Part shown: in pieces, positions 20,826-36,030 of the stretch
Layout of the letters: each line of letters opens with the position of its first letter
Numbering within the stretch: the first letter of the stretch is position 1
Virus record (IMG/VR): IMGVR_UViG_3300010354_000046
Span: 62,001 to 126,000 of that record
Direction: 5' to 3' (one strand)
DNA from: a virus
DNA length: 64,000 bases
The notes under the pieces: model-generated
Database searches by the model: none
What the model was told of the DNA's origin: nothing
Seen by the model: only the letters and a program-made list of their open reading frames with translations
Made by a program: the position numbers and the translations under genes

Positions 20826-22267
20826 TGCAACATTTTTATGACGGACAGATAAGAAGATACCTAACCCAAACAATACGAGTTTTAAGTAACTTTGTAGTAA
20901 AATATGGAGATGGTACTTTAGTTAGAATTCCTGTAGGCTACGGAGATGCTGATCGCCAAGCTGCCAATGTAGTTCGACAAAACACCGGATCATCTCTTAG
21001 TAGTGTTCCAAAAATAAGTGTTTATATATCTGGGTTAGATTTAGACAGTTCACGTTTGGGTGATTCGAGTTATGTTGGGAAAGTTCACATACGAGAACGA
21101 GATATCGATATTGCAACCGACAGATATACTCAAGGCCAGGGACGCAACTACACAGTTGAAAGAATGATGCCTACACCGTTTAAGTTAACCATGAAGGCCG
21201 ATATATGGACTGCCAACACTGATCAAAAATTACAGGTACTTGAACAAATTTTAGTATTATTCAATCCTAGCTTAGAGTTACAAACAACAGACAACTATAT
21301 CGATTGGACTAGTCTTAGCGTCTTAAATCTTTCACAGGTAAATTGGAGTTCAAGGCAAATTCCTGTTGGGACAGATAGTCCTATCGACATTGCTACTCTA
21401 ACTTTTGAAACTCCTATATGGATCAGTCCTCCTGTTAAAGTTAAACATCTTGGGGTTATACACAGTATTATTACTAGCATTTATCAAGACGCAGGTCGTA
21501 GTGATGATGCATACATAGAAGGCTTAGGTCATCCATTAACTTCAGGACAGAGTAATTTTGCAAATCTATTAACCAAAGAAATTGTTACAGTTACAGACTA
21601 TGTTATACAAGTATACAACGGTCAAGCAGTTTTGTTAAAAACAAATGAAGGATATGTTCCGAGAGAACCTGTTCTCGATATCCCTCAACGAAACGGAGTT
21701 CCAATTAATTGGAATGAATTGTTTGACAAATACCCTAAAAAGTATGCACCGGGGTCGACAATGATATTTTTAGTTCAGCCAAACGGGTCTGAAGTTGTTG
21801 GAACTGTACTGATTGATCCAACAAATGAAACAATATTAAAAATTAATTGGGATGCCGATACAAGGCCGCCTGATACCGATTTAGATAGCCCTGGTGACAG
21901 AAGCTCTAATGGCGGCAGAAGTTTAGGAACTTTTGACGCAATTATCGATCCTACAAAAACTTATCCTGGAAGCGGAATGACAAATTTAGAATCAGGAGAC
22001 AGATTTTTAATTATCGAGGATATAGTAGATACAAGTCTTAATGATCCAGTTGCACAAGGTTGGGGCGGGTTCGTTGCAGCAGCAAATGATATTATCGAAT
22101 GGGATGGATCGGCGTGGCAAATAATTTTTGAATCTGCTCAAGAATCTAACACCATGATCTGGCAAACTAATATATACACTGGTATACAATACGTGTGGAA
22201 TGGCGTAATGTGGGCTAAATCATTTGAAGGCGAATACGCACCAGGATCATGGAGAATAGAAATATAA
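20825..22267 (+). CDS. 15: Tail sheath stabiliser and completion protein gp15-like
   Basis: 480 residues. The first 210 residues match the T4 gp15 plan: FYDGQIRRYLTQTIRVLSNF, a VRIPVGYGD strand, MMPTPFKLTMKADIW, LQVLEQILVLFNPSLELQ and LTFETPIWISPPVKV. gp15 caps the sheath and tube and joins the tail to the neck. T4 gp15 is 272 residues; the extension here carries 'IIEWDGSAWQIIFES' and 'YVWNGVMWAKSF' modules like those of gp14 and the sheath. The start shares one base with the gp14 stop, and the Nudix gene starts 19 bases inside its end. Confidence 0.85.
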   Translation: MQHFYDGQIRRYLTQTIRVLSNFVVKYGDGTLVRIPVGYGDADRQAANVVRQNTGSSLSSVPKISVYISGLDLDSSRLGDSSYVGKVHIRERDIDIATDRYTQGQGRNYTVERMMPTPFKLTMKADIWTANTDQKLQVLEQILVLFNPSLELQTTDNYIDWTSLSVLNLSQVNWSSRQIPVGTDSPIDIATLTFETPIWISPPVKVKHLGVIHSIITSIYQDAGRSDDAYIEGLGHPLTSGQSNFANLLTKEIVTVTDYVIQVYNGQAVLLKTNEGYVPREPVLDIPQRNGVPINWNELFDKYPKKYAPGSTMIFLVQPNGSEVVGTVLIDPTNETILKINWDADTRPPDTDLDSPGDRSSNGGRSLGTFDAIIDPTKTYPGSGMTNLESGDRFLIIEDIVDTSLNDPVAQGWGGFVAAANDIIEWDGSAWQIIFESAQESNTMIWQTNIYTGIQYVWNGVMWAKSFEGEYAPGSWRIEI

Positions 22268-22698
22268 ATGATAAAATTATCTGTAGTGGTGCTTTGATTT
22301 ATTCAAGATCCACTCAAAGATTTCTTTTATTACAAAAAGCTCAAGGTAAACATTCAGGCACTTGGGGGCTTGTTGGCGGTACAATGCACGAAGATGAAAA
22401 TCCATGGCAAGGTTTACAACGAGAAATTACCGAAGAAATAGGTAGTATGCCTGAAATAACAAAAACAATACCTTTAGAAACATTTGTCAGCAACGATACT
22501 GTGTTTAATTTTCACACTTATTTGTGTGTAGTTGAAAATGAATTTGTTCCCTTGCTAAGTGACGAGCACTCAGGGTGGGCGTGGTCAACTATGGATTCAA
22601 CACCAAAACCATTACATCAAGGTCTACGTAATAGTTTTAGTAATAAAACAGTAAAGACTAAACTACAAACTGTTTTCAATGTTATGGATTTGATTTAA
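22249..22698 (+). CDS. Nudix hydrolase
   Basis: 149 residues with a complete Nudix box, from GGTMHEDENPW to REITEEIG, matching G-x5-E-x7-RE-x2-EE-x-G. Nudix enzymes cut nucleoside diphosphates linked to another moiety: oxidised dNTPs, ADP-ribose, NDP-sugars, RNA caps. The family member cannot be chosen from sequence. It overlaps the end of gp15 by 19 bases and converges with, and overlaps by 17 bases, the end of the first halogenase gene. It therefore sits at the border of the island and might serve either nucleotide clean-up or nucleotide-sugar turnover. Confidence 0.9.
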   Translation: MENRNINDKIICSGALIYSRSTQRFLLLQKAQGKHSGTWGLVGGTMHEDENPWQGLQREITEEIGSMPEITKTIPLETFVSNDTVFNFHTYLCVVENEFVPLLSDEHSGWAWSTMDSTPKPLHQGLRNSFSNKTVKTKLQTVFNVMDLI

Positions 22699-24163
22699 TA
22701 TAATCGATCCATTGTTTGTGATTCACAGCATTTCTTTTCGTTTGATCTTTAATTAGGTTAATTTTTTCCGAGTAATTTTTTGTTGCGTTATAAAGATGAT
22801 GGTGATCTAAAAATTTCTTTAGCCCTTCTTTATTCTTAATCAGACCGTGACCGTATGCTACACAAGTAAAACTAGTAGATTCAAACATAAATCTATCATT
22901 TGGAATATCTTTACTTGTCAGGACTCCGTAGTTAAATTTTTCTTCCATTTCCAGTATCCATTTGGGTTTATTACCGGTCATGTATCGCCAAAAGTCGCTA
23001 TCTGTGCGGTTGGTGTTATAGAAAAATCTAATATACTTGAAGCTATTTTCATAGATTTCTGACATCGTATTATTATAGTTTCTTTGATCATACGCAAGAT
23101 GTGTTCCTTGAAATAGTCTTGTAAAATTATCAATTTGTATAATTAGATGATGAATACTGGTAGCTTCTAAAGGTTCAACAAATCCGCTAGCAAGACCGAT
23201 AGCAAGACAGTTACCTATCCATTGATTGTTATAGTAGCCGCTTGTAAAATTGATGACTCTATCGCTTTGCAATTCAACATCGTGTGTTTCAACTAACCAT
23301 CGATTAAAATCATTTTTTGCTTCTTCGTCTGTAGTAAATTTACTACTATAAACGTAACCTGTTCCTCGTCTGTTACTTAACGGAACATCAAGAATCCATC
23401 CGTTTTTGCTGGCAGTGGCTGTTGTATACGGAGGTATTTCATTAAAATTTTTAAACAACGGATTGGGTATAGTTTTATTTGTAGGTAACAATTCTGACAT
23501 ATCAATCCAGTCGGCATTGAATTGTTTAATTAAAATACGTTCGTATCCAGAGGCATCAATATAAACATCTCCTCGTATTACTTCTCCTGATTGAAGTTTT
23601 ATATAATCAATAACATTGTCTTTAAGAATTACTTCCGAAACTATTCCGTCAATGGTTTTAATTTTATCTTTAAATTTATTTTCGACATATTTGCTGAAGA
23701 GAGTTGCATCAACATGTAGTGCATGTCGATAGGATAAATCATTTGTACTAGGAATTAAATTATTTTGAAAAAAGAATTGTCCGTAATTATAGCCACCATT
23801 AGCTTGATCTTGCAAGATTTCATAAGCTTCAATGGCGTTGTAATTAAACATCACAGAGTCGATTGCTGCTAAAGATTCGTTGTGAGGAAAGCTGTGATAC
23901 CATTCGGCTCCGGGTTGTGCCCAATCTTTAAATTTAAGCCCTAATTTTATTGTTGCATTACAGTCTCTAATTAAATCTAAAGTAGATATGCCTACAGCTT
24001 TTAAGTATGCATCGAACACCGGAGTTAAACTTTCTCCTACGCCGATTCCTGGTTTTTTATGATCGTAGATTACAGTTATTTCAGCCCGATCGCCCCAGTA
24101 TGATTTAAAATAACTAGAAGCAACTGCTCCGCTTGTTCCTCCACCAATAATGACAATTTTCAT
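22682..24163 (-). CDS. Flavin-dependent tryptophan-halogenase-family enzyme A
   Basis: 493 residues. The FAD-binding GGGTSG is at residues 7-12 and the second nucleotide motif GVGES at 41-45. Lys73 in NATIKLGLKFKDW lines up with catalytic Lys79 of PrnA/RebH. GFVEPLEATSI holds Glu333, equivalent to PrnA Glu346. The halogenase signature WxWxIP is degraded to GWILDVP (255-261), followed by a normal RRGTGYVYS. The chloride-contact pair (PrnA Thr348-Gly349) reads Thr-Ser. The enzyme uses FADH2, O2 and halide to make hypohalite in the known family; whether it still halogenates is open. It is last in the five-gene minus operon, overlapping the previous gene by four bases (ATGA). Confidence 0.85.
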   Translation of the reverse strand: MKIVIIGGGTSGAVASSYFKSYWGDRAEITVIYDHKKPGIGVGESLTPVFDAYLKAVGISTLDLIRDCNATIKLGLKFKDWAQPGAEWYHSFPHNESLAAIDSVMFNYNAIEAYEILQDQANGGYNYGQFFFQNNLIPSTNDLSYRHALHVDATLFSKYVENKFKDKIKTIDGIVSEVILKDNVIDYIKLQSGEVIRGDVYIDASGYERILIKQFNADWIDMSELLPTNKTIPNPLFKNFNEIPPYTTATASKNGWILDVPLSNRRGTGYVYSSKFTTDEEAKNDFNRWLVETHDVELQSDRVINFTSGYYNNQWIGNCLAIGLASGFVEPLEATSIHHLIIQIDNFTRLFQGTHLAYDQRNYNNTMSEIYENSFKYIRFFYNTNRTDSDFWRYMTGNKPKWILEMEEKFNYGVLTSKDIPNDRFMFESTSFTCVAYGHGLIKNKEGLKKFLDHHHLYNATKNYSEKINLIKDQTKRNAVNHKQWIDYIKSNP

Positions 24164-25617
24164 GTATGACTCCTAATTGCCAATAACATTTCTTTATGTG
24201 TTAGCACATCGTCTTGTTCAATTCTATTTGCATTTTCTAAATCTTCTAAAACTTTTAGTACATATTCTTTAGCTTCAACTGGTAGTGTGTCATACTCTTT
24301 TTTAATGCTATTTTGATCAAACAACTGTAGACCGTGAAGAATAAAAATATAGTGTAGTTCTTTAAACAAGACTGATTTCGATATTTTTTCAAAATCATCT
24401 TCAACAGGCATCTTGTATCGCCACACATTCAAATTTTGTTCTAAACTAGGAGGAAGTTTAGTATCGGCAACCTTACGCCAAAATTCTGTGTCTCGACGCG
24501 GACACACAAAATGTAATGTAATAAAATCTCGAATGTTTTCGACTATGTCTCTAAATGACTCGTTGTATTTGTCAATAGCATCTTGATTGTAATTAACTAG
24601 TCTTGTGATTAGCATAAAACATTGCTGTATAGTAGCTCCAATACTGCTTGCTTCGAGCGGTTCAACAAAACTACTACTCAACCCTAACGCACAACAATTT
24701 TTAATCCAAGCATGATCTAATGCGCCTGGTTCAAATTTAATATGTTGTCCTACTGTTATTTCATGACCTAATACTTTTTCAACTTCAATTTTTGCCTGCT
24801 CAGGAGTTAAAAAACTGTCATCAAAAATGTAACCATTGCCCCAACGGCCGTAAGTTGGTGTCCTAAAAAGCCATCCGTAATCCATTGCTTGAGCAAGACT
24901 CCACATATTATAATTTTCTGTATCTGGAGTCTGAAATACGATTGCGCTATTTGTATGAAGATATTCTTTGTGACTTATCCATTTGGCTCCAAGTTTACTA
25001 ATAAGAAACTTTTTAAAACCTGTACAGTCAGCGTAAAAATCGTATTTGTATGTTGCATCTTCACTTTTTAATAAATCTATTCCGTCGTCATTTACTACTA
25101 CTTCTGTTATTTCGTCGTGGTAGATTGTAATTTCTCGATCTAAAGCAATCTTTGTTAGATAGTCATTTAGTTTGAATGTATTGAAATGGTACTGCGCTAC
25201 TGGTGTTCTATTATTATCTAAAAACCACTTTTGCACTTTATTTTCCCAAAAAATTTCTCCAGATAATCTCCGAGAATCCATGCCGTCACTTACAAGTTTA
25301 GCATATATCATAGGATACTTTTTTAACCATACTAGATTGTATCCGTCTTGTATACTATGCATGTAATCGGGTACTCCCCAATTTTTAAAAACAATTCCCA
25401 TCTTCATTGTAGCATCAGTTTCGACTATCATTTCCCCTGTGTTAATGCCTACAAAATCTGCAAATGCACTCCAGTGTTCGGTTGATCCTTCGCCTACTCC
25501 TATAATTCCAATTCGCTTGCTACAAATAATATCGACTTGGTAATTTGGAAACCTTGTTTTAAGTATTAACGCAGAAACAAGTCCGGCTGTTCCGCTTCCA
25601 ACAACTGCAATACGCAT
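24160..25617 (-). CDS. Flavin-dependent tryptophan-halogenase-family enzyme B
   Basis: 485 residues. The motifs are GSGTAG (7-12), GVGEGSTEHW (40-49) and Lys72 in DATMKMGIVFKNW, which aligns with the catalytic Lys. The signature region is GWLFRTP (248-254), with RWGNGYIF after it, in place of GWxWxIP and GTGYVYS. FVEPLEASSI keeps the catalytic Glu (322), while the chloride-contact pair is Ser-Ser. The overall length is normal for the family (about 500-540). The altered signature could mean a different substrate, a different halide, or a shift to monooxygenation. Its start shares one base with the stop of the 25617 gene. It is clearly divergent from A and C, so not a fresh duplication. Confidence 0.8.
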   Translation of the reverse strand: MRIAVVGSGTAGLVSALILKTRFPNYQVDIICSKRIGIIGVGEGSTEHWSAFADFVGINTGEMIVETDATMKMGIVFKNWGVPDYMHSIQDGYNLVWLKKYPMIYAKLVSDGMDSRRLSGEIFWENKVQKWFLDNNRTPVAQYHFNTFKLNDYLTKIALDREITIYHDEITEVVVNDDGIDLLKSEDATYKYDFYADCTGFKKFLISKLGAKWISHKEYLHTNSAIVFQTPDTENYNMWSLAQAMDYGWLFRTPTYGRWGNGYIFDDSFLTPEQAKIEVEKVLGHEITVGQHIKFEPGALDHAWIKNCCALGLSSSFVEPLEASSIGATIQQCFMLITRLVNYNQDAIDKYNESFRDIVENIRDFITLHFVCPRRDTEFWRKVADTKLPPSLEQNLNVWRYKMPVEDDFEKISKSVLFKELHYIFILHGLQLFDQNSIKKEYDTLPVEAKEYVLKVLEDLENANRIEQDDVLTHKEMLLAIRSHT

Positions 25618-26393
25618 TACTTTATACTCCTAAAAGGACATGCATCAGTTTCAAGAGTTTTTATGAATAAATCTCGAGTTTTAGATTGTTTTAAAAATGT
25701 TTTAGCACCAGTCGACACTTGTGTTTTTTTAATCCACTCTTGTTCGCTAATAACTTGTATTTTTAATTCGACTTTTTTATCGGTAAGAGGAATGATGTGG
25801 ACAAGAGGAGTTCCAGCTTTCATAATAAATTCTTGCCTTATATTTGGAATCTCCATAAATGTATGCAAATGTAAACAATGCTGGCTGTTAAAATCAATAA
25901 CACCTCCAGCTGGCGCTAATTTATTAATCCAGAAAGGATCGTTGTTAGTAGTCCAATAGGGTTTTTGTATTAAAAATTTTGTACCAGTGGGTTCTTCTAT
26001 ATGCCATGGAAGCACTATCTTTACATGCTGATATCCATTAAACCCGCTCCATTGTCCGGGCCAGTGACTTTCTAAAGCAAACGGATTATCTGCACTAATA
26101 AAACTATATTTGCCATCAGTATCTATAATAACACTTACGTCAGTCCACAACGGAGCCATGAATCCAGTTTTAAAATAATCAATAACACCCGGGCAACCTT
26201 TAAGCGTTCCTGATGGGATTTTGTGCCTTGCGCCAGTTCCTGGATTTGTTTTTTCTTCGATTGTTTCCAAGGGCAAATCTTTAATCCAACCTGGGTAAAA
26301 TTTCATTGCTGGCATTATGGGTGTTGTTTTAGCAATCATCGAATCGTATGTAAAACAATTCAGTGTTATTTTTGATTTCTTAAAAAAGAACAT
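25617..26393 (-). CDS. Unrecognised island protein
   Basis: 258 residues beginning MFFFKKSKITLNCFTYDS. Readable segments include MKFYPGWIKDLP, LKGCPGVIDYFKTGFMAPLW, FALESHWPGQWSGFNGYQHV and a final DACPFRSIK. It is rich in Trp and Pro, with a likely all-beta, cupin-like strand pattern in the middle; this is impression, not identification. No signal peptide or transmembrane segment is seen. Both junctions share one base with neighbours (TAATG), so it is translated together with halogenase B and a 2OG-oxygenase-like gene and probably acts in the same pathway. Similar uncharacterised proteins occur, to my recollection, in other marine phages. Confidence 0.6.
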   Translation of the reverse strand: MFFFKKSKITLNCFTYDSMIAKTTPIMPAMKFYPGWIKDLPLETIEEKTNPGTGARHKIPSGTLKGCPGVIDYFKTGFMAPLWTDVSVIIDTDGKYSFISADNPFALESHWPGQWSGFNGYQHVKIVLPWHIEEPTGTKFLIQKPYWTTNNDPFWINKLAPAGGVIDFNSQHCLHLHTFMEIPNIRQEFIMKAGTPLVHIIPLTDKKVELKIQVISEQEWIKKTQVSTGAKTFLKQSKTRDLFIKTLETDACPFRSIK

Positions 26394-27043
26394 TATGCAT
26401 CAACTCCTACATTACCGGCAATGCTTATTCTGTAATCGTCGCTAGTATAAAACGGATTAACACTATGCGTCAGAGTTGCTGGAAAAAATAACATTTTTCC
26501 CTCAAACTCCTTGTCTACAGGTATAACCATTCCGCTATGTTGTCCTACTATGTTCGAATAATGAAATGTAAATTTAGAAACACGACGACTCTGGTCATTC
26601 ATATCGGGAAACATTCTGTCTTCGTCTTCTAAATTATAAGGAATTTTAATCCAGATAACAAAGCTAAAAATACCTGTGTGCAAGTGCGGCGGATTAAATT
26701 CATGTTTCTTTTGAAAGTTAACCCATAAATTTTTTAGTTTAAATTTCCTATTATCATTGTAAATGCCAATATCAACTTGAGGAGTGTAGTTCCATTTTTC
26801 ATCGTATAATTTAGTTAACGCAAGAGCTAAAGGCTCAACAGCATTCCAACAATCACTATTGGCAACATATTCGTGGTTTAAGTGACCTAGTAGATTTCTT
26901 TGAAATCCTTGATAAGAATCAAACTTTGATTCAAGCATTTGTTGAACGCTCGAAGTTAATACTTGCATAACATCGTTGGGTACAATTGCATCTATAACCC
27001 CAATGTTTGGTAAATCTCGAAATCTTGTGAGTAAGTTGTTCAT
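26393..27043 (-). CDS. 2OG-Fe(II)-oxygenase-like protein, pair 1 (second copy)
   Basis: 216 residues, a sister of the next gene upstream. LWVNFQKKHEFNPPHLHTG carries His120-x-His122, and FFPATLTHSVNPFYTSDDYRIS carries His193 and Arg205. This is the order of a double-stranded beta-helix oxygenase: HxH in place of HxD, distal His, then the Arg that binds 2-oxoglutarate. The 'FNPPHLHTG..SFVIWIKIPY' layout resembles the 2OG-FeII_Oxy_5 type, where HxH is seen. The substrate is unknown. It overlaps the upstream copy by four bases and shares one base with the downstream gene. The catalytic call is family inference from motif order. Confidence 0.65.
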   Translation of the reverse strand: MNNLLTRFRDLPNIGVIDAIVPNDVMQVLTSSVQQMLESKFDSYQGFQRNLLGHLNHEYVANSDCWNAVEPLALALTKLYDEKWNYTPQVDIGIYNDNRKFKLKNLWVNFQKKHEFNPPHLHTGIFSFVIWIKIPYNLEDEDRMFPDMNDQSRRVSKFTFHYSNIVGQHSGMVIPVDKEFEGKMLFFPATLTHSVNPFYTSDDYRISIAGNVGVDA

Positions 27044-27690
27044 ACTAATCTTAAGTTTCCTGCAACAGATATTCTGTAGTCGTCACTGGTATAAAATGGA
27101 TTTACACTATGATTTAAGTGAGATGGGAATATTGCAATATTTCCTTCAAAATTTTTGTCTATGTTTAATGAATAATTTCTAAGTTGGCCAAGTACGTTGT
27201 TATAATGAAAAGTAAACTTCGATGTTCGTGGGTCGCTGTTACTTACAACAGGAAATACTTTACGCTCGTCGTCTAAATTATAAGGAATGCGAACCCATAT
27301 AACAAAACTTAAAATTCCAGTGTGTGTATGTACAGGATTAAATTCGTATTTTTTTTGAAAATTTACCCATAGATCAGTAAGTCTTAACTGCTTCGGAACT
27401 GTTACATTAAACTGCTCGTCTAGTTCTTGGAAATAATGCCATTTTTCGTCGTACAAATTTGCTAAATGCAAAATAAAAGGCTCGATTTGCGGTATTAAGC
27501 CGTGCATGCCGTATTCGTTGTTCATATGTCCCAGCAGTAAATTTCGATAGTCGAATTCTTTATCAAACCCGCCGTTTAACATTCTATCAATATCTTGATT
27601 TAAGATACTCATTATTTCGTCAGGTACTTGGGCTATTAAAACTCCATATGTTGGAAGCTCCCGAAAATCTATAGAAAGTTGCTTGGTCAT
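27040..27690 (-). CDS. 2OG-Fe(II)-oxygenase-like protein, pair 1 (first copy)
   Basis: 216 residues, the first gene of the minus operon. The metal-site motifs are His121-x-His123 in EFNPVHTHTG, His194 in FPSHLNHSV and Arg206 in DDYRISVAGN. It is collinear with the following gene over its whole length (shared NLLLGH, LYDEKW, LWVNFQKK and SVNPFYTSDDYRIS), so the two arose by tandem duplication, but they have diverged well beyond a recent copy. It is transcribed away from the 85-base divergent region shared with halogenase C. The reaction (hydroxylation, halogenation or other) cannot be read from sequence. Confidence 0.65.
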   Translation of the reverse strand: MTKQLSIDFRELPTYGVLIAQVPDEIMSILNQDIDRMLNGGFDKEFDYRNLLLGHMNNEYGMHGLIPQIEPFILHLANLYDEKWHYFQELDEQFNVTVPKQLRLTDLWVNFQKKYEFNPVHTHTGILSFVIWVRIPYNLDDERKVFPVVSNSDPRTSKFTFHYNNVLGQLRNYSLNIDKNFEGNIAIFPSHLNHSVNPFYTSDDYRISVAGNLRLV

Positions 27691-27747
27691 GTATTATCTC
27701 GTAAGTTTACTATATATCACAATCTCCCGAGTAGGTTTTAGAGTTTA

Positions 27748-27755
27748 GATAAATT
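27748..27755 (+). promoter_or_regulatory. Candidate promoter element for the plus-strand halogenase operon
   Basis: GATAAATT lies 20 bases before the ATG at 27776, with an AAGGA ribosome binding site between (27764-27768). It differs from the late consensus by one base. The 85-base region 27691-27775 must carry promoters for both divergent operons; on the minus strand TATATAG and a weak GAG ribosome binding site are the only candidates I see. Confidence 0.4.
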
Positions 27756-27775
27756 ACATAAACAAGGAAACTCAT

Positions 27776-29371
27776 ATGGACAGAAATAAGACGATTAAAA
27801 AAATAGTTATAGTTGGCGGCGGATCGGCTGGGTGGATGACTGCTGCAACATTAAAACATTTTTTTCCGTTAAATGAAGTAGTTGTTATTGAAAGTCCGGA
27901 TATTCCAATTGTGGGTGTCGGGGAAAGTACATTGGGAGGTATACGTTACTGGACCCAAGCCCTCGGTATTGATGAGAAAGATTTCCTGTCTTACACAAAT
28001 GGGTCGTACAAATTAAGTATTAAATTTACTGATTTTTATGATAAAGATGCAGGGTCTTTCCACTACCCGTTTGGAACGCCTGTGCTTACCGATGCGCCCG
28101 AAGGTCTTAACGAGTGGCAAGCAAAAAAAGTAATTTACCCCGACACGCCTGTGGAAGATTATTGCAGAACATTTTATTCGCAGATGCCTTTGATTGAAGG
28201 TAATAAGTATAGTTTGAATGAAGATGGCGATATTGACGGCTACCGAACTGATTCAGACGTAGCTTACCATTTTGATGCTCAGCTATTTGGAAGATGGCTT
28301 CGTGAACGGTACTGCATTCCGAGAGGAGTACAGCGTACAGAGGATACAGTCGTTGACATCAAAACCAACGACGACGGAATTGAAAAATTAATTTTAAAAT
28401 CAGGCCAAGAAGTTACTGCTGATTTATTTGTTGATTGCACAGGTTGGAAAAGTATGCTGCTAGGCGGTGCTCTTAAAGAACCGTTTACTTCTTATGAAGA
28501 CATGTTGCCAAATAATAGAGCATGGGCGGTACAATTGCCCTATGTAGATCCTGAAAAAGAAATTGAACCGTATACTAATTGTACTGCTATTGGACACGGT
28601 TGGTGTTGGAATATTCCGTTGTGGAGTCGTTTAGGCACTGGGTACGTGTACAGCGACAAGTATATTGACCCCGAAGGCGCTAAAGAAGAATTTAAACAGT
28701 ATCTTATGAGTAATAAGATGACTGTTCCTAGAACCAAAGAACAAGTAGATGCGTTACAGTTCCGTGATATCCAAATGAGAATTGGAATCCATGAACGCAC
28801 ATGGGTTAAGAATGTAGTAGCTATTGGGCTTTCTGCGGGGTTTATCGAACCCTTAGAAAGTAACGGATTGTTCAGCGTTCACGAGTTCCTTATGATGCTG
28901 GTAGCAGCTCTTGAAAGATCTCATACTAGCCAGTGGGACAAAGACGGTTATAACACCGCAACTTTATCTTTATTTAGAAATTTAGCAGAATTTGTAGCAT
29001 TACACTATGCCCTAAGCGGCCGCAATGATACAAACTACTGGGAAGCTATTAGCAAAAAAACATTTGATCCTGGAATGGTCAAGCGTATTCCTACTATTAA
29101 CAGAGGATTTGCAGACCTTGTAGATAAAAAGTTTTTTATGTTTGGACACAATTTACCCGGCGGCATTCATTGTATTGCAACAGGGATGAATTATTTTGTT
29201 ATGAATCGTGCAAACATTATACACGCCGAGTGGAAATTTGGGCATAACGCAAAACGTGTGTTGGATGAATTTATATTCAAAAGAAAATTCCTACAAGATA
29301 AATGGCAACGTGCAGCAGATCGATCTCCGACACTCTATCAATTTTTGAAAAATAAAATTTATAATGACTGA
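27776..29371 (+). CDS. Flavin-dependent halogenase C, full signature
   Basis: 531 residues, the most canonical of the four. Motifs: GGGSAGWM (14-21), GVGEST (47-52), Lys79 in GSYKLSIKF (the same number as catalytic Lys79 of PrnA and RebH), GWCWNIP (275-281, the complete WxWxIP signature) followed by RLGTGYVYSDKY, and GFIEPLESNGL with Glu361. The chloride-contact pair is Asn-Gly. This pattern strongly recalls VirX1, the halogenase of cyanophage Syn10, reported to prefer iodide. It lacks a reductase domain, so FADH2 must come from a separate host or phage flavin reductase. It leads the eight-gene plus operon, with a good Shine-Dalgarno, and overlaps the next gene by eight bases. Confidence 0.93.
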   Translation: MDRNKTIKKIVIVGGGSAGWMTAATLKHFFPLNEVVVIESPDIPIVGVGESTLGGIRYWTQALGIDEKDFLSYTNGSYKLSIKFTDFYDKDAGSFHYPFGTPVLTDAPEGLNEWQAKKVIYPDTPVEDYCRTFYSQMPLIEGNKYSLNEDGDIDGYRTDSDVAYHFDAQLFGRWLRERYCIPRGVQRTEDTVVDIKTNDDGIEKLILKSGQEVTADLFVDCTGWKSMLLGGALKEPFTSYEDMLPNNRAWAVQLPYVDPEKEIEPYTNCTAIGHGWCWNIPLWSRLGTGYVYSDKYIDPEGAKEEFKQYLMSNKMTVPRTKEQVDALQFRDIQMRIGIHERTWVKNVVAIGLSAGFIEPLESNGLFSVHEFLMMLVAALERSHTSQWDKDGYNTATLSLFRNLAEFVALHYALSGRNDTNYWEAISKKTFDPGMVKRIPTINRGFADLVDKKFFMFGHNLPGGIHCIATGMNYFVMNRANIIHAEWKFGHNAKRVLDEFIFKRKFLQDKWQRAADRSPTLYQFLKNKIYND

Positions 29372-29972
29372 TTTATATCCTTTATTTTCTCAGCCGGTAT
29401 TAACTGTTGATACGGACAAATCAAAGCTGGTAGATCTTGTATCTTATTGTGAAAATGTGCTACAATACAGATCTAACGCTGGAGGTAATTTTACTAGTTT
29501 GAATACAAGTGTATTAGATCTTGCCGAGTTCAGTGATGCAAAAGAACTGATTAACAACGCCATTAAAGTATACACCCAAGAAGTAATGTCCTGGACTGAC
29601 GAAGGTTTAAATTTCTTTGTAACTCAATCTTGGGTTAACAAAAATCCAAGAGGAACATGGCATCACGAACATTATCATTTGAATACAGTTTTAAGCGGTG
29701 TATTATATTTGCAAACTGTTGAGAATGATAGTATATCTTTTGTTAACAACTCGAAACCATTTTTTAAGTTTTACCCAACAGTTTCGAATATTTGGAATAG
29801 CGAAAGATTTAATATTGAAGCTAAAGATAATAGAGTAGTGTTATTTCCAAGTGGAATGTTGCACGGCGTGCCTTCGCATAATTCAAACTATAATAGATTT
29901 AGTTTGGCTTTTAACGTGTTTGTTAAAGGAAAAATTGGTAGCAAGGAAAATTTAACATATGTTGAATATTAA
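29364..29972 (+). CDS. 2OG-FeII_Oxy_5-like oxygenase, pair 2 (first copy)
   Basis: 202 residues. TQSWVNKNPRGTW is followed by a histidine-dense stretch (HHEHYHLNT, 100-108), then LSGVLYLQT and, at the end, LFPSGMLHGV with His167 and NRFSLAFN with Arg178. The 'SW.N....G...H.H.N..SG.lYL' layout is that of the 2OG-FeII_Oxy_5 group, with His103-x-His105-x-Asn107 aligning to the usual H-x-H-x-N. It starts inside the last codons of halogenase C, so the two are translated together. The substrate is unknown. Related to the gene at 30919, from which it is separated by the GT9-like gene. Confidence 0.75.
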   Translation: MTDLYPLFSQPVLTVDTDKSKLVDLVSYCENVLQYRSNAGGNFTSLNTSVLDLAEFSDAKELINNAIKVYTQEVMSWTDEGLNFFVTQSWVNKNPRGTWHHEHYHLNTVLSGVLYLQTVENDSISFVNNSKPFFKFYPTVSNIWNSERFNIEAKDNRVVLFPSGMLHGVPSHNSNYNRFSLAFNVFVKGKIGSKENLTYVEY

Positions 29973-29980
29973 GGACTAAG

Positions 29981-30922
29981 ATGAAAAGAAACACAGCATT
30001 TTTAATCAATGGCGGAGCGGGGCGTGTACTGAGTTCCATTCCTGCTTTCGAACTTTACGAAAAAGAAAATCCCGAGGATAATTTTATCATTGTTGTTGAA
30101 GGATTTATGGAGTTATTTAAAGGGCATCCAACTTTATATAAAAGATGTTACGAGTTTAGTCATCGTAATTTATTTGAAGATAAACTACGAGATATGAATT
30201 ATTTTCAGCCTGAGCCTTACCAAGTATGGGAATACTATAATCAAAAAGCTACAATTTCTCAAGCATTTGATATTGCTATTAATAAAAAGGGGCTTCGAGA
30301 AGTACCTAAGCCCACTATTGCTCTTACCACAGAAGAAAATTTAGGGGGCGCTGAAACTCTAAAAAATATTCGCAAAGACTTCAATAATAAAAAAGCCATA
30401 GTTATTCAACCCTTTGGAAGAGGGTCAAATATGAATCATCATGCTCATAATATCGATATGGGCGGTCGATCATTTATGCCCGAACATGCTGCCAAACTGA
30501 TCAAACGCCTACAGAAAAAATATTGTGTTATTGTTATGGACGAAAAACAACACGATTTTAAAGCATTAGGATGTGAAGACGTTGTTGTACAGATGACAGG
30601 AATGACTTTACGTCGATGGATGGGCGTTATTAACTCTGCTAGCTACTTTGTCGGCTGCGATAGTATTGGTCAGCACATTGCGTATGCCTTAGGAAAACCG
30701 GCTACAATTATCATTGGGTCAACATTTAAAGAAAATGTGTCGTACCCTAACGCTAAGAATTTTAATATTATTGACCTAGGTGAAGGCCGTAAAATGTACA
30801 GCCCTATTAGAATGTGTTTTAATGAAATTGCAGATGTTAACAACGATAAACTAATGCACTTAAAAGATTCAGATTATGATAAAATTGTTGCTTCTATCGA
30901 AAACGGAATGAATAAGGTATGA
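29981..30922 (+). CDS. GT9/heptosyltransferase-like glycosyltransferase
   Basis: 313 residues with a two-domain GT-B look. The N-terminus LINGGAGRVLSSIPAFELY resembles the GD.l...P.....k opening of heptosyltransferases. A middle strand IVIQPFGRGSN and the C-terminal VGCDSIGQHIAYALGKPATIIIGST (about 224-248) match the nucleotide-sugar-binding end of family 9 (usual form D.G..H.A...g.p.v.lfG.t). It would transfer a sugar to a glycan or small molecule in the cytoplasm. It is bracketed by the two pair-2 oxygenase genes (8-base gap and 4-base overlap) and followed by a carbamoyltransferase, which usually modifies sugars. Sugar and acceptor are unknown. Confidence 0.7.
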   Translation: MKRNTAFLINGGAGRVLSSIPAFELYEKENPEDNFIIVVEGFMELFKGHPTLYKRCYEFSHRNLFEDKLRDMNYFQPEPYQVWEYYNQKATISQAFDIAINKKGLREVPKPTIALTTEENLGGAETLKNIRKDFNNKKAIVIQPFGRGSNMNHHAHNIDMGGRSFMPEHAAKLIKRLQKKYCVIVMDEKQHDFKALGCEDVVVQMTGMTLRRWMGVINSASYFVGCDSIGQHIAYALGKPATIIIGSTFKENVSYPNAKNFNIIDLGEGRKMYSPIRMCFNEIADVNNDKLMHLKDSDYDKIVASIENGMNKV

Positions 30923-31527
30923 CGTCATTTGAAATTATTCCTTTATTTCCTCAAGCGTTATATAGGGCTGTTTTTCGGCCCTTAACTTCCACTGAGATTG
31001 AAATAATTGATAATTTCCCTGTTGAAAAGCAACAGTTGGGTAATCATACTAGTCATGTACCTTACTTTTTAAACGAACCTGGATTAGAAAATTTAAAAAA
31101 AGATTTAGAAGAGCATATCGATACATATGTAAGAGAAATAATGAAAGTTGACTACAATGTGTATATTACCAATTCTTGGAAAAATTTAACCAAGCCCGGT
31201 GAGCAGCATATGATACACAACCATTCAAACAGCATTATTTCTGGATGTTTGTACCTAAGATCGAGTCACATCCAACCTACTATATCTTTTACTAGAGGAA
31301 ATTTTCCTTATCTGCTTGCATTTGAGCCAACAGAATTTACGCCATTTAACGCATTAGAGTGGACCATTCCGGTTGAGGATAACAATATTATTTTATTCCC
31401 GTCAACTATGCATCATTGTGTAAAGACCAATCAAAGTAACAAAGAAAGAATGAGTCTTGCATTTAATACATTTGTTAGAGGTAACATCAGGACTCAATAT
31501 ACAGGAGCAGATTTAATCTTAAAATAA
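30919..31527 (+). CDS. 2OG-FeII_Oxy_5-like oxygenase, pair 2 (second copy)
   Basis: 202 residues, the same length as the gene at 29364 and alike in plan: NSWKNLTKPGEQHMIHNHSN gives His100-x-His102-x-Asn104, then IISGCLYLRS, LFPSTMHHCV with His166, and ERMSLAFNTFVRGN with Arg177. The N-terminus FEIIPLFPQALY is typical of the group ('lFp.pvy'). It overlaps the GT9 gene by four bases and lies three bases before the carbamoyltransferase gene. Known members of this group are mostly uncharacterised, so the reaction is inferred only as an Fe(II)/2OG oxidation. Confidence 0.75.
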   Translation: MTSFEIIPLFPQALYRAVFRPLTSTEIEIIDNFPVEKQQLGNHTSHVPYFLNEPGLENLKKDLEEHIDTYVREIMKVDYNVYITNSWKNLTKPGEQHMIHNHSNSIISGCLYLRSSHIQPTISFTRGNFPYLLAFEPTEFTPFNALEWTIPVEDNNIILFPSTMHHCVKTNQSNKERMSLAFNTFVRGNIRTQYTGADLILK

Positions 31528-31530
31528 ATT

Positions 31531-33321
31531 ATGAAAAAACCTATTTGGATTGCAGCAATTACTAGAGGGCATAATGCCAGTGTATGTTTACTAAAAGACG
31601 GAGAAATTGTTTTTAGTATTGAAGAAGAGAGATTAAGTCGACACAAATATGACGGCGGTCCTTTTGCTTCGATGATAAAAATTTTAGAATATACGGATAA
31701 ACTTGATTATCTTGTTGTTGCACACACTCAAACATTAGACGACACCGCAGGAAAAATTGACTTCACTGGAGATAACGTTTATACAGGTCTTGCAAGAAAA
31801 CTAGGATTAATCAATCGCAAAGAAAACATTTATAAACATCCACAAGTTATTGATTTAAGTCATATACACCATAAACTTCATGCTGCTTGTGCATTTTATC
31901 GAAGTGGTTTTGAAAATGCAGTTGCAGTTATTGTAGATGGCGCAGGAACATTTTTACCGTTAAGTGTAAACAACGAAGCAGTAATTGGCTGGGAAACAGA
32001 AAGTCTTTACGACTGTTCCTACCCTAGTAATTTTACAACATTATATAAACACATTGGGCTACGAGGACCTAATTCTGGTATGTTAGTTAAGAATTTTGAT
32101 AGTTCAATGTATGACGAGCCTGGTAAAACACACGAAGCGTTTATCACAGACCGTGCAGGTATTACTAAAGTATACGAAGCAGTTACCCAGTACTGTGGAT
32201 GGAGCCCTATTGAAGCCGGTAAAACTATGGGGTTATTTCCATATGGTAACAAAACAGACAAGATACCTAAGTTATTTGACGAATCAAGTGTAAGGCCGGT
32301 ATCGAACAGAAACCTTATTGTTCCTACTTATCCTAACGGTGCTGTGGTTAATCATGGCTTGTTTGAGTATTTAAATGAGCACGAAGCACAAGACATTACA
32401 TATCTTGATAACCGTCGAGACTTAGCTTATGCCTGTCAAACACAAACTCAAGAACAGTCGCTTAAATTAATAAAATATGCTGTTGAAAAAAGCGGGAATA
32501 AAAATGTAGTGTTTAGTGGAGGTTACGGTTTAAATTGTGTTGCCAATTACTATTATCTAAATGAGCTTAGAAAAGACGGTATTAACTTCTACGTTGAACC
32601 TATTAGTAATGATGCTGGAACAGCGATTGGTGCAGCATTAATGTGGTGGCACAAACTTACTAATGATTGTACTATTAGAAAAGGAAAAACACTTTATCTT
32701 GGTCCTAAAAAAACTTATAGTAATGAAGAAATTTATAAGGAAGTTAACAAAGCAAATGTACAGATAAAAGATGCATCTTATGCAGACATTGTCAAGCTGT
32801 TAACAGAAAAAAACATTGTTACACTATTCCAAGGATCTAGTGAAAACGGTCCAAGAGCATTAGGAAATCGTAGTGTACTATTTGACCCTAGGTTTGCAGA
32901 TGGTAAAGACTATGTTAATAATGTAAAACACAGAGAATATTTTAGGCCGTTTGCAGGCAGTATTTTACAAGAATTTGTACACGAATGGTTTGATTTACGT
33001 GGCATGGAGGACACTCCTTTTATGATGTATGCTGTAAATTGCCAACCAGGAGTAGAAGAAAAAATACCAAGTATCATTCATGTCGACGGAACTTGTCGTA
33101 TACAAACAGTAACACAAGAACAAAATTATCATTACTATAATTTGATTAAAGAATTTTATAATCAAACAGGATGTCCAATTATCTTTAATACTAGTTTTAA
33201 CTTAGGTGGTGAACCATTAGTTGAAACATTAGAAGATGCTATATGGACCTTAACAAATTCGGACATTGAATATTTGTTCTTACCTGAGTATAATAAATTA
33301 ATCATTGTTAAAAATAAATGA
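31531..33321 (+). CDS. NodU/CmcH/TobZ-family carbamoyltransferase
   Basis: 596 residues, a full-length two-domain O-carbamoyltransferase. N-terminal Kae1-like domain: RGHNASVCLLKDG (12-24), EEERLSRHKYDGG (31-43), the metal-site HHKLHAACAF (His113 and His117) and IVDGAG (Asp136). Later motifs: VFSGGYGLNCVAN, then SSENGPRALGNRSVLFDPR of the C-terminal YrdC-like carbamoyl-adenylate domain, and FNTSFNLGGEPLV. The family uses carbamoyl phosphate and ATP to carbamoylate hydroxyls on sugars or antibiotics (NodU on Nod factors, TobZ on tobramycin, CmcH on cephem). Next to a glycosyltransferase it most simply decorates a sugar. Three-base gap before, four-base overlap after. Confidence 0.92.
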   Translation: MKKPIWIAAITRGHNASVCLLKDGEIVFSIEEERLSRHKYDGGPFASMIKILEYTDKLDYLVVAHTQTLDDTAGKIDFTGDNVYTGLARKLGLINRKENIYKHPQVIDLSHIHHKLHAACAFYRSGFENAVAVIVDGAGTFLPLSVNNEAVIGWETESLYDCSYPSNFTTLYKHIGLRGPNSGMLVKNFDSSMYDEPGKTHEAFITDRAGITKVYEAVTQYCGWSPIEAGKTMGLFPYGNKTDKIPKLFDESSVRPVSNRNLIVPTYPNGAVVNHGLFEYLNEHEAQDITYLDNRRDLAYACQTQTQEQSLKLIKYAVEKSGNKNVVFSGGYGLNCVANYYYLNELRKDGINFYVEPISNDAGTAIGAALMWWHKLTNDCTIRKGKTLYLGPKKTYSNEEIYKEVNKANVQIKDASYADIVKLLTEKNIVTLFQGSSENGPRALGNRSVLFDPRFADGKDYVNNVKHREYFRPFAGSILQEFVHEWFDLRGMEDTPFMMYAVNCQPGVEEKIPSIIHVDGTCRIQTVTQEQNYHYYNLIKEFYNQTGCPIIFNTSFNLGGEPLVETLEDAIWTLTNSDIEYLFLPEYNKLIIVKNK

Positions 33322-33833
33322 TACAACATTTTTCAGAATTTGTTGAGCCGTGGCTGCATAACAAAGCTAAAGAACAATTGCTGAGTCCTATGCTGGACTG
33401 GAATTTTCCTACATTTGGTGGTCAAGATACTGATATAAAGTATGCTTGTTTTGGTAGATGTGCTCTAAATTTAAGTAAAAATTATGTAAACTGGAATAGA
33501 GTTGAATCGTTAACTTATGTGTTAGATAACTGGTTAGAGCGTAACAAGAATTGGTTTCAAGTTGATCTTGTCGGTAGATGTATAATGAATTTTTATACTC
33601 CGGGCCAGCAAACAGAGTGGCACACAGATAATACTTATAACATGCCAGGACTTTATAGCCTACTGTATTATGTAAATGATGCTGACGGTGGAACAGAATT
33701 TAAGGATCACAAATATTACCACCAGGAAAACACAGGAATATTGTTCGATTCTTATACATTGCATAGACCAATAGTATCTACGGTGCCCCGAAGAATAAGT
33801 GTAAGTTGGATAATTCAAGGACGAGTATTATGA
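33318..33833 (+). CDS. 2OG-Fe(II) oxygenase, prolyl-4-hydroxylase-like, pair 3 (first copy)
   Basis: 171 residues with a canonical facial triad: His102-x-Asp104 in TEWHTDNT, His149 in SYTLHRP and the 2OG-binding Arg158/159 in VPRRISVSWII. LYYVNDADGGTEF is the usual strand-turn between the first His/Asp and the distal His in P4Hc-type enzymes. It overlaps the carbamoyltransferase stop by four bases, and its own stop (ATGA) overlaps halogenase D. Its near-twin lies just beyond halogenase D. It hydroxylates or otherwise oxidises an unknown substrate. Unlike the other two pairs it has HxD, so ordinary hydroxylation is more likely than halogenation. Confidence 0.88.
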   Translation: MIQHFSEFVEPWLHNKAKEQLLSPMLDWNFPTFGGQDTDIKYACFGRCALNLSKNYVNWNRVESLTYVLDNWLERNKNWFQVDLVGRCIMNFYTPGQQTEWHTDNTYNMPGLYSLLYYVNDADGGTEFKDHKYYHQENTGILFDSYTLHRPIVSTVPRRISVSWIIQGRVL

Positions 33834-35017
33834 AAGTTGCAGTATTGGGCGTGGGCACAGCTGGAATTATGTCGCTGTGTCATGCATTACGATGGTTATG
33901 TCCAAAAGACAGTACTGTAACTTCAATATATGATCCCAAGTTTCCAATTTTAGGAATTGGAGAAACATCTCAACCTGGATTCCAAACTTTATTATTTGAG
34001 TCAACCGGTTTCACTTTTTTAGACGATGCTGATAAATTGGATGCAACCATTAAATTAGGTGGAATGTGGAAGAATTGGAGAGACGATGACTTTAATGCGT
34101 GTCTTACTGCACCATCTTATGCTATACATTTTAATAATTTTAAATTGAAAGAATTTTGTTTTTCGAGGTTTAATAAAAAATACCAAAGTAAATTTTTAGT
34201 ATCCGAAGGTAACATAGACAGTATAACTAATGCAGGAACTTGTGTGCTAGTAGTTGTCGACGGCATAGAATATCAATACGACTATGTTATTGATTGTAGA
34301 GGTTATCCTACAGACCTGAGTGAATACTATGTTGTTGAAACTCCAACTGTAAATAGTGCATTGGTAAACATAATTAATGAACCGGGTACATGGAACGCTA
34401 CTGTTAACCAAGCTACAAAGAACGGCTGGATGTTCGGGCTACCTTTACAAACAAGACAAGGGTGGGGATATCTATATAATGATAAACTTACTACAAAAGA
34501 AGAAGCAATAAAAGATATTGAAGAAATCTTTAATAAAGAGAACATAGAATTAAAAGAATTTAAATTTAACAGTTATCATGCTAATACATTTTTTGACGGT
34601 AGAATTTTAAAAAACGGAAACAGGGCGTTCTTTTTTGAACCAATAGAAGGGCAGGCGGGATTTTTTTACGAAATCGCCTTGCGGTATCTTGTAGATTATG
34701 TGTATGGCCAGTGTTCTGTAGCAGATGTTAACAGACACCTTTTAGATGCAGCAAAAGATTTAGAATTATTCATTAATTTTATATATCACGGCGGCAGTAA
34801 GTTTCAAACAACTTATTGGAGTCATATATCAAAAGTGGCTAGAGAAAAACTAAACAACAACGAAAAATGGAATTATATTGTTTCTACCGTGAATAATTAT
34901 TTAAAATTTGGTGGGCAAGAGCCGCCAACTAACACTATAGGTCGTTGGAGTGTTCACCACTGGAAAATGTGGGATAAAAAGTTAGGCTATAATTATTTTT
35001 ATGATAAAAACATTTAA
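33830..35017 (+). CDS. Short flavin-dependent halogenase-family enzyme D
   Basis: 395 residues from the ATG at 33830, chosen over 33806 because AAGGA lies eight bases upstream, the frame then starts MKVAVLGVGTAG, and the start overlaps the preceding stop. It is about 100 residues shorter than A-C, with most of the loss in the middle and C-terminal lobe. It retains GVGTAG (7-12), GIGETSQPG (42-50), Lys75 in DATIKLGGMWKNW and Glu273 in FFEPIEGQAG. The signature is GWMFGLP (199-205), then RQGWGYLYNDK. The chloride-contact pair becomes Gln-Ala, the most altered of the four. A reduced halogenase or a flavin oxidase/monooxygenase are both possible. Confidence 0.75.
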   Translation: MKVAVLGVGTAGIMSLCHALRWLCPKDSTVTSIYDPKFPILGIGETSQPGFQTLLFESTGFTFLDDADKLDATIKLGGMWKNWRDDDFNACLTAPSYAIHFNNFKLKEFCFSRFNKKYQSKFLVSEGNIDSITNAGTCVLVVVDGIEYQYDYVIDCRGYPTDLSEYYVVETPTVNSALVNIINEPGTWNATVNQATKNGWMFGLPLQTRQGWGYLYNDKLTTKEEAIKDIEEIFNKENIELKEFKFNSYHANTFFDGRILKNGNRAFFFEPIEGQAGFFYEIALRYLVDYVYGQCSVADVNRHLLDAAKDLELFINFIYHGGSKFQTTYWSHISKVAREKLNNNEKWNYIVSTVNNYLKFGGQEPPTNTIGRWSVHHWKMWDKKLGYNYFYDKNI

Positions 35018-35513
35018 TAAATTTGTACCCGATTGGCTACACCGCCGGGCGCATGAACAGTTACTAAGCCCGTATGTAGATTGGCACTTTCCTGGAAACG
35101 GGGGCTATTACGGTGACATCGATAAAGCATGTTTTGCTAAATTGTTGTTTGATGAAGAGCGAAATTATTCAGATTTTTCAGGAGTTGATTCTTTAGTTTA
35201 TGTGCTAGAATCTTGGTTAGATCAAAATAAAAGTTGGTTTAAATTTGAAAGATTGAACCGTTGTATATTAAATTTTTATACACCGGGTATGACTATCGGA
35301 TGGCATACAGATCACTCTAATTCTAGGTACCATACATTAATTTATTATGTAAATGACAGCGACGGAGGAACTGAGTTCGAGACTGTCAAAGTCCCACATA
35401 GAGAAAATTCCGGTGTTATATTAAAATCAAAGGACTCACATAAAAATATGGAGTCCTCTGTTCCGCGACGCATAAGTGTCGCATGGATTTTAGTCGGCGA
35501 TATTATGGATTAG
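35001..35513 (+). CDS. 2OG-Fe(II) oxygenase, prolyl-4-hydroxylase-like, pair 3 (second copy)
   Basis: 170 residues, collinear with the gene at 33318 (both contain LLSP, DGGTEF and VPRRIS at matching positions). Triad: His102-x-Asp104 in IGWHTDHS, His147 in KSKDSHKN, Arg156/157 in SVPRRISVAW. It begins 17 bases inside the end of halogenase D and is the last gene of the plus operon, overlapping the end of the tail-assembly chaperone gene by 11 bases in convergent orientation. The two copies bracket halogenase D, suggesting that an oxygenase-halogenase unit was duplicated or inserted here. Confidence 0.88.
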   Translation: MIKTFNKFVPDWLHRRAHEQLLSPYVDWHFPGNGGYYGDIDKACFAKLLFDEERNYSDFSGVDSLVYVLESWLDQNKSWFKFERLNRCILNFYTPGMTIGWHTDHSNSRYHTLIYYVNDSDGGTEFETVKVPHRENSGVILKSKDSHKNMESSVPRRISVAWILVGDIMD

Positions 35514-36030
35514 TAGCTTTGCCCCACTTGTCCTCAGGATTCCAAGGTGCTTTGGGCCAAGGTACTCCAAGATGGCTTTTAAGTTTTGTCAAATCAATAT
35601 TATCTGTCATATCTCTTAGAGCCTGTCGATAATCGGCCCATGCTTGCTTATCTTCTGGACTCAGTGGACTATCAGGCATTTGTGTCCAATCACTCGTAAC
35701 AAATTTATGTAATCGTTGTCCGTGTATCCATCGGCGATATTTTTCTCCCGGGCTAATTTCTGTAAATACCCAAGTTTGTTCAATACTACCATCAGGATTT
35801 TTTACAATTTCTCCCGGAGCAACTTCTTCCCATTCTTCTACTATCGGAGGATAGGCGTTTTTAATTTCGACAATACTTTGAGAAGCCAGTAACCCAGGAG
35901 TTAACTCGTTGAAAGTCAACACCCTGGTTTGAGGATCTTCAATAGCAAATAAATGTCTTACATTTTCTTCGATTAAGGGAGGGCCCGATGGCAACCCGTC
36001 TTCGTCAATGTACGTGTAAAGTTTCTGCAT
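35503..36030 (-). CDS. Phage tail assembly chaperone-like protein
   Basis: 175 residues. The C-terminus has the signature of phage tail-fibre assembly chaperones: KFVTSDWTQMPDSPLSPED, WADYRQALRDMTDNID and VPWPKAPWNP (usual form 'R...L..sDwtqlpD.pl...q.aW..YRqaLRdiP......WP..P'). The N-terminal half is a short beta-rich region likely to contact the fibre. It follows the fibre gene at 36062 with a GGAG ribosome binding site, the usual fibre-then-chaperone order. It would help fold or trimerise that fibre. The gene is read toward, and slightly overlaps, the island's last oxygenase gene. Confidence 0.8.
   Translation of the reverse strand: MQKLYTYIDEDGLPSGPPLIEENVRHLFAIEDPQTRVLTFNELTPGLLASQSIVEIKNAYPPIVEEWEEVAPGEIVKNPDGSIEQTWVFTEISPGEKYRRWIHGQRLHKFVTSDWTQMPDSPLSPEDKQAWADYRQALRDMTDNIDLTKLKSHLGVPWPKAPWNPEDKWGKATNP

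Follow-up and report, generated by a model that had tools for sequence, protein, structure and literature searches.

A Conserved Phage Island of Predicted Halogenases, Oxygenases, a Glycosyltransferase and a Carbamoyltransferase Located beside Tail-Fibre Genes

Related Gene Clusters in Described Phages

Single halogenase, 2-oxoglutarate-dependent (2OG) oxygenase and carbamoyltransferase genes of marine phages have long remained unexplained "auxiliary metabolic genes". In cyanophages, prnA, carbamoyltransferase and 2OG genes were tabulated by Sullivan et al. 2010 (PMC3037559), and a ten-gene cluster of phage S-SSM6a, combining carbamoyltransferases with a halogenase and 2OG genes, was predicted to serve in secondary metabolite formation or capsule decoration by Iyer et al. 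2021 (PMC7824862). Here, an island of 13 open reading frames (ORFs) with these enzyme types is described from a large aquatic bacterial virus, IMG/VR virus record IMGVR_UViG_3300010354_000046, at positions 22682-35513 of the window, the 64,000-nucleotide stretch analysed (62001-126000 of the 141.6-kb record, which is probably a fragment). The island comprises four halogenases of family PF04820, six 2OG oxygenases, one carbamoyltransferase, one GT9 glycosyltransferase and one phrog_7084 protein. With roughly even confidence, we read it as a late-expressed virion-decoration system that would glycosylate, carbamoylate, hydroxylate and halogenate the phage's own fibres, the predicted substrate. 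This function is favoured because a fixed core stands beside fibre genes, a promoter-like element is common to the island and tail genes, a sugar operon is present in the record, and the halogenases form clades with intact catalytic residues.

The island of S-SSM6a and S-SSM7 resembles that of the window in its GT9-carbamoyltransferase pair (carbamoyltransferase 66% identical), its 2OG and halogenase genes and its location between fibre and neck genes. However, it carries one halogenase instead of four, placed after rather than before the carbamoyltransferase, it also contains sugar genes together with a predicted methyltransferase, and its phages belong to the family Kyanoviridae. The HemK-like methylase, cupin and HAD phosphatase of the S-SSM6a type are absent from the 13 genes of the window, a cupin being found in a separate sugar operon. 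Phages P-SSM2 and S-CAM1, like the window record, combine GT9 and carbamoyltransferase with kinase, nucleotidyltransferase, cupin and epimerase genes, in their case between tail-fibre genes, but their cluster has no halogenase and its sugar genes are contiguous, whereas here they lie ~61 kb away. Pelagibacter phage HTVC008M also encodes four 2OG oxygenases and a gene labelled "ferrochelatase" beside gp13-15, and a further 2OG oxygenase and a halogenase next to the terminase genes; unlike the window, it has this set split over two places, with no GT9-carbamoyltransferase pair in that region.

Among single enzymes, the cyanophage halogenase VirX1 (PDB 6qgm) is a relative of halogenase 3, although here the VirX1-like gene is one of four and its activity is predicted. 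The protein heptosyltransferases TibC and BAHT have the GT-B/GT9 fold in common with the window protein at ~10% identity, and an adhesin-related role is what is proposed here; the dodecamer, iron finger and catalytic Asp of TibC are not evidenced for the window GT9. Relative to these systems, the new elements are the non-cyanophage lineage, the halogenase number, the core fixed in 15 contigs, the GT9-carbamoyltransferase unit with a donor operon, and the promoter-like element common to tail genes. A preliminary description of this DNA, made from the letters alone, had named as a possible refutation the prior description, with a function, of identical phage clusters; the S-SSM6a cluster is a related one, of which the island is an enlarged form.

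Architecture and Conservation of the Island

Five ORFs lie on the minus strand (22682-27690) and eight on the plus strand (27776-35513), overlapping or nearly so within operons that diverge from an 85-bp gap at 27691-27775 (Table 1). The minus operon contains halogenases 1 and 2, the phrog_7084 protein and two 2OG oxygenases, and the plus operon runs halogenase 3, 2OG, GT9, 2OG, carbamoyltransferase, 2OG, halogenase 4, 2OG. On one side the island is flanked by gp15-like and Nudix genes and on the other by a Phage_tail_APC gene and a Gly/Cys-rich fibre gene. The preliminary description was thus borne out in its account of 13 genes in two divergent, overlapping operons between tail-completion and tail-fibre genes, and its enzyme assignments agreed with Pfam matches for the halogenases, 2OG oxygenases and NodU-type carbamoyltransferase and with the fold for GT9.

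Relatives were collected by IMG/VR scans with six window proteins and by local profile searches, which gave maps of 172 loci. The core order halogenase-2OG-GT9-2OG-carbamoyltransferase recurs in 14 further contigs (15 with the window). Each has between two and five halogenases and between two and six 2OG oxygenases, and extra halogenases and 2OG oxygenases make up the variable part of the island. The earlier view that a set of four halogenases is unique is thus corrected by these relatives, although isolates in the phage collection have at most three halogenase places per record (S-RIM44) among the matches listed. The independent contigs L006, L007 and L014 carry the island end to end, L006 without halogenase 4 and L007 with one extra halogenase. 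An assembly join, previously raised as a possible refutation, was rejected, as in these contigs the order continues over each edge. The island proteins share 81-95% identity with those of L014 (halogenase 1: 67%) while silent sites are mostly saturated, which indicates purifying selection; for dN/dS (nonsynonymous to synonymous substitution ratios), such saturation permits only the term "purifying". Because these three contigs hold the arrangement end to end and the proteins are conserved while silent sites are saturated, the arrangement is real and not due to chance. The same core in 14 other contigs likewise upholds the earlier expectation of a stable cassette without a scaffold enzyme rather than random cargo.

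Table 1. Features of the island and its surroundings (positions in the window).
Feature	Positions	Strand	Evidence and remarks
gp15-like tail sheath stabiliser (flank)	20825..22267	+	PF16724 E 2.6e-23; phrog_11196
Nudix hydrolase	22249..22698	+	PF00293; overlaps gp15, abuts island
Halogenase 1, 493 aa	22682..24163	-	PF04820 E 4e-89; Lys/Glu intact; own clade
Halogenase 2, 485 aa	24160..25617	-	PF04820 E 2e-80; Lys/Glu intact; own clade
phrog_7084 protein, 258 aa	25617..26393	-	phrog_7084 E 3.8e-27
2OG oxygenase a	26393..27043	-	PF13759; HxH...H...R
2OG oxygenase b	27040..27690	-	PF13759; 49% identical to a; first gene of minus operon
Divergent promoter region (putative)	27691..27775	.	GATATATA at -28 (minus operon), GATAAATT at -28 (plus operon); conserved in relatives
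Halogenase 3, 531 aa, VirX1-like	27776..29371	+	PF04820 E 4e-106; full WxWxIP; first gene of core
2OG oxygenase c, core	29364..29972	+	PF13759
GT9 heptosyltransferase-fold glycosyltransferase, core	29981..30922	+	phrog_8954; AlphaFold2 and Foldseek
2OG oxygenase d, core	30919..31527	+	PF13759
O-carbamoyltransferase, NodU/TobZ type, core	31531..33321	+	PF02543 and PF16861; PDB 7xb6, GdmN, TobZ
2OG oxygenase e	33318..33833	+	PF13640-like; HxD...H...R
Halogenase 4, short form, 403 aa, TTG start	33806..35017	+	PF04820 E 5e-26; Lys/Glu intact
2OG oxygenase f	35001..35513	+	PF13640; 49% identical to e
Tail-fibre assembly chaperone-like (Phage_tail_APC), constant neighbour	35503..36030	-	PF16778 E 1e-12; phrog_4912
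Gly/Cys-rich tail fibre, Thr/Ser-rich N half; candidate substrate	36062..38386	-	phrog_4474; weak Gly_rich_2; composition
Giant tail fibre, 3191 aa; alternative candidate substrate	38740..48315	-	phrog_9851 E 2e-152; GATAAATA at -31

Association with Tail-Fibre Genes and a Promoter-like Element

In all 14 other contigs with the core, it lies 1.0-3.7 kb from the Phage_tail_APC chaperone gene or the Gly-rich fibre gene. The neck side varies more: in contigs L010 and L011, fibre genes enclose the island, and neither gp15 nor Nudix genes occur within 10 kb to its left or right. Among carbamoyltransferase loci flanked by 6 kb or more at each end, 44 of 44 include a fibre-family gene within 8 kb, and only 8 of them a neck gene at that distance as well. 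These loci are interrelated, which makes the counts non-independent, and they show three arrangement types. Thr and Ser make up 30% of the N half of the fibre at 36062-38386. Its distal 244 residues contain 35% Gly and ~6% Cys, an unusually Cys-rich composition for a virion protein.

Both island operons of the window begin behind a GATAAATA-like element, and in the relatives 18 of the 26 island leaders have the form GATA(A/T)(A/G)T(A/T) at about -30, compared with an expectation of 0.57. Elsewhere in the record, the element precedes the giant fibre gene, a neck gene at 19392 (-13) and a tail-spike-like gene (-30), and it stands at -51 of a 908-aa gene adjoining the portal gene; it also precedes the Gly-rich fibre of L010. 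With the island excluded, four of 76 leader genes carry it between -40 and -13, where 0.37 would be expected (P 6e-4). We infer that it could be a lineage-specific late promoter. The T4 late motif TATAAATA was not usable as a timing marker, with 0 occurrences in the window against 9.3 expected by shuffling, and the GATAAATA-like element was taken instead; scans for sigma-70-type promoters and terminators gave counts at chance level. The TATAAATA motif is missing from the whole window as if avoided.

Glycosyltransferase, Carbamoyltransferase and Sugar Operon

The Pfam match to GT9 (5e-4) is below the cut-off; the AlphaFold2 model of this protein, with a predicted local distance difference test (pLDDT) score of 90.6, was matched by Foldseek to the GT9 structure 3tov (E 4e-11), WaaC, WaaF and TibC. 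According to the model, the protein adopts the GT-B fold of GT9 enzymes, as do ADP-heptose transferases. Among the latter, TibC acts on proteins and heptosylates serines of autotransporter adhesins (PMC4358343). The carbamoyltransferase is full length, with a Kae1-like Carbam_trans_N domain and a YrdC-like C domain, and was aligned to 7xb6 and 9s2t; its closest solved structures include natural-product enzymes. In 76 of 77 loci, a GT9 gene lies less than 1 kb upstream of the carbamoyltransferase gene and in the same orientation, including those of phages without a nearby halogenase.

Outside the window, ~61 kb upstream in the record, a nucleotide-sugar operon (G000:C1:20523-23640, L179:523-3640) encodes an epimerase, a PfkB kinase, a cytidylyltransferase-like protein, a cupin and an epimerase. 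In P-SSM2, S-CAM1 and S-SSM7, genes of these kinds directly adjoin the GT9-carbamoyltransferase pair, and the records of these phages annotate them as heptose genes. Sugar decoration followed by carbamoylation would be the best supported chemistry, given the GT9 fold and a sugar operon of a kind contiguous with that pair in the three cyanophages; the identity of the sugar is likewise deduced from these genes. The preliminary description had the cassette modify something already present, which needs amending in one respect, as the sugar donor need not come from the host. A looser second set of modifying genes was also observed outside the window, among DnaB- and Toprim-type replication genes (G000:C1:49199-59901, L180), with three oxygenases (one PF13640, two PF13759), a lone Carbam_trans_N protein of 317 aa and a fragment of phrog_7084.

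Halogenases and Oxygenases

The four window proteins, predicted halogenases, belong to the PF04820 flavin-dependent halogenase family, all scoring above the cut-off, and the GxGxxG flavin site, the catalytic Lys (K79) and the Glu (E346) are intact in each. They are 27-30% identical to one another. In a quick tree of 132 halogenases, in which long branches are present, each of the four belongs to a different supported clade that also includes orthologues from other phages. Among relatives, the catalytic Lys is kept in 132/132 and the Glu in 131/132. The WxWxIP motif is complete only in halogenase 3, the second Trp being Leu, Phe and Phe in halogenases 1, 2 and 4, respectively. The best PDB match of halogenase 3 is VirX1 (E 1e-94, aligned over residues 7-425). 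Among isolates, halogenase 1 is nearest to that of S-SRM01 (40%), halogenase 2 to those of S-H38 and P-SSM2 (~42%), and halogenase 4 to those of S-SSM5/S-MS29 (44% over 97%).

Pfam places four 2OG oxygenases in PF13759 and two in PF13640 (one just below the curated cut-off and one above), and the positions of the metal and 2OG ligands are kept in all six. Oxygenases e and f have HxD...H...R, and the four PF13759 proteins have, in place of the canonical HxD triad, the HxH...H...R of the PF13759-like structures 2rg4 and 3bvc. The three pairs recognised earlier are unequal, as a/b and e/f are each 49% identical and c/d only 33%. Oxygenases e and f also match phrog_274, labelled "DNA endonuclease V"; because the matched proteins are intact 2OG oxygenases, this is a misleading family label for them, and it is likely wrong in many records, together with the denV labels of cyanophage records. 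In the nearest relative, the gene for oxygenase f is broken by a stop (L014:15134-15646; 66 + 103 aa). The phrog_7084 protein is a recurrent partner of halogenases (AlphaFold2 pLDDT 78.6); a dUTPase-like fold gave only a partial, weak match (TMq ~0.37) and was not used.

Possible Function of the Island

In the proposed mechanism, the sugar operon would make a nucleotide-activated, heptose-type sugar, which GT9 would transfer to Ser/Thr of a tail-fibre protein, as TibC does on autotransporter adhesins, and the carbamoyltransferase would cap a hydroxyl of that sugar. The 2OG oxygenases and flavin halogenases, supplied with reduced flavin by the host, may hydroxylate and halogenate side chains exposed on the Gly-rich tip; the outcome could be stabler fibres, changed receptor binding or a chemically diversified adhesin. 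Action of PF04820 enzymes on peptide-bound Trp has a precedent in MibH of lanthipeptide biosynthesis. Phage-encoded decoration of virion proteins is known from mycobacteriophages, whose capsid and tail-tube subunits carry glycans (Freeman et al. 2023, as cited in PMC12619734). The fixed core, fibre synteny, late-type element and donor operon turn these genes into a testable proposal, namely that phages chemically mature their adhesins. If true, the prediction of host range would change, as the fibre sequence alone would be insufficient, and the island would be a source of enzymes that halogenate or hydroxylate intact proteins. The wider idea, that jumbo-type phages put halogens, hydroxyls and a carbamoylated sugar on their own receptor-binding fibres, with swapped halogenase orthologues acting as an adhesin diversity system, is tentative.

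Several points weigh against fibre decoration. The substrate and the halogenation are predictions from the genes, and several of the 14 core contigs are near-duplicates, so there are fewer independent cases. In T4-like phages, the tail-fibre regions are hot spots for insertion, and the adjacency to fibres may thus be passive. GT9 enzymes mainly build lipopolysaccharide (LPS), PF04820 enzymes act mostly on small aromatics, VirX1 was reportedly assayed on small molecules, and a flavin reductase sought in the record was not found. The promoter-like element was first noticed at the island itself and was counted in small numbers; of the four non-island genes behind it, two are ORFs of 94 and 167 aa with function unassigned.

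The preliminary description had left three substrates in view; of these, phage structural proteins are favoured by synteny and by the promoter-like element. One of the other two is a host envelope glycan (LPS or capsule), remodelled in the course of infection, for instance to prevent superinfection or modulate lysis, with the sugar operon and GT9 extending the glycan and the carbamoyltransferase and other enzymes decorating it. GT9, kinase, nucleotidyltransferase and epimerases are indeed LPS-type genes, and P-SSM2-type cyanophage clusters have been so interpreted (PMC7824862), but no lipid-carrier, flippase, polymerase or ligase gene was seen within the island, halogenases and 2OG oxygenases are not usual LPS tools, and the island stands beside fibres with a promoter-like element common to tail genes, which leaves this explanation rather unlikely. 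We consider it less probable still that the cassette converts a host metabolite into a halogenated, glycosylated and carbamoylated small molecule (antibiotic, signal or toxin): such a product was predicted for S-SSM6a (PMC7824862), the same enzyme types tailor natural products and the closest solved carbamoyltransferases include enzymes of that kind, yet the island has no scaffold enzyme, transporter or resistance gene, a gain late in lytic infection is not evident, and the fibre synteny would be left unexplained.

Cargo without a common function, tolerated at a hot spot between neck and fibre genes and perhaps including PF04820 proteins that are plain monooxygenases, would accord with the hyperplastic region between structural genes of cyanomyoviruses (PMC2984593) and with a PA5oct-like phage that lacks an island at the same place. 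This is improbable in view of the core order fixed in 15 contigs, the 76/77 GT9-carbamoyltransferase loci and the distinct orthologous halogenase clades with catalytic residues kept. The least credible explanation is DNA hypermodification, in which oxidised bases would be glycosylated and carbamoylated against restriction. In the MetaGPA phages (PMC8670742), a carbamoyltransferase with PF02543 and PF16861, as in the window, acts on 5-hydroxymethylcytosine to make 5-carbamoyloxymethylcytosine in DNA; however, the partner enzyme there is a thymidylate synthase-type hydroxymethylase, and no such enzyme (PF00303) is present in the window record, possibly a fragment. In the same study, the carbamoyltransferases of unmodified contigs were those flanked by unrelated genes, such as glycosyltransferases. 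A Tet_JBP search, run without a positive control, gave no match, and halogenases fit nowhere in this scheme.

Phage Lineage and Flanking Genes

The terminase is 55% identical to that of PA5oct-type Pseudomonas jumbo phages and 50% to those of Phosso and Atu_ph07, and the relatives of gp15 are the same phages (Phosso, Atu_ph07, PA5oct-like). Because of these relationships, and as psbA was looked for in the record and not found, a cyanophage origin was rejected and the phage is placed, by sequence, with jumbo myoviruses of proteobacteria. L011, a contig with the same island core, is 345 kb long. A near-DNA search with the window matched no isolate. Pseudomonas phage Cassandra (PA5oct-like) possesses the structural gene-gp15-Nudix unit without an island there; the Nudix gene, with the same gp15-Nudix pair in that phage, is probably a lineage gene outside the system. 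In the translation, the gp15-like protein shows by eye a Trp-rich C-terminal extension past the T4 gp15 domain.

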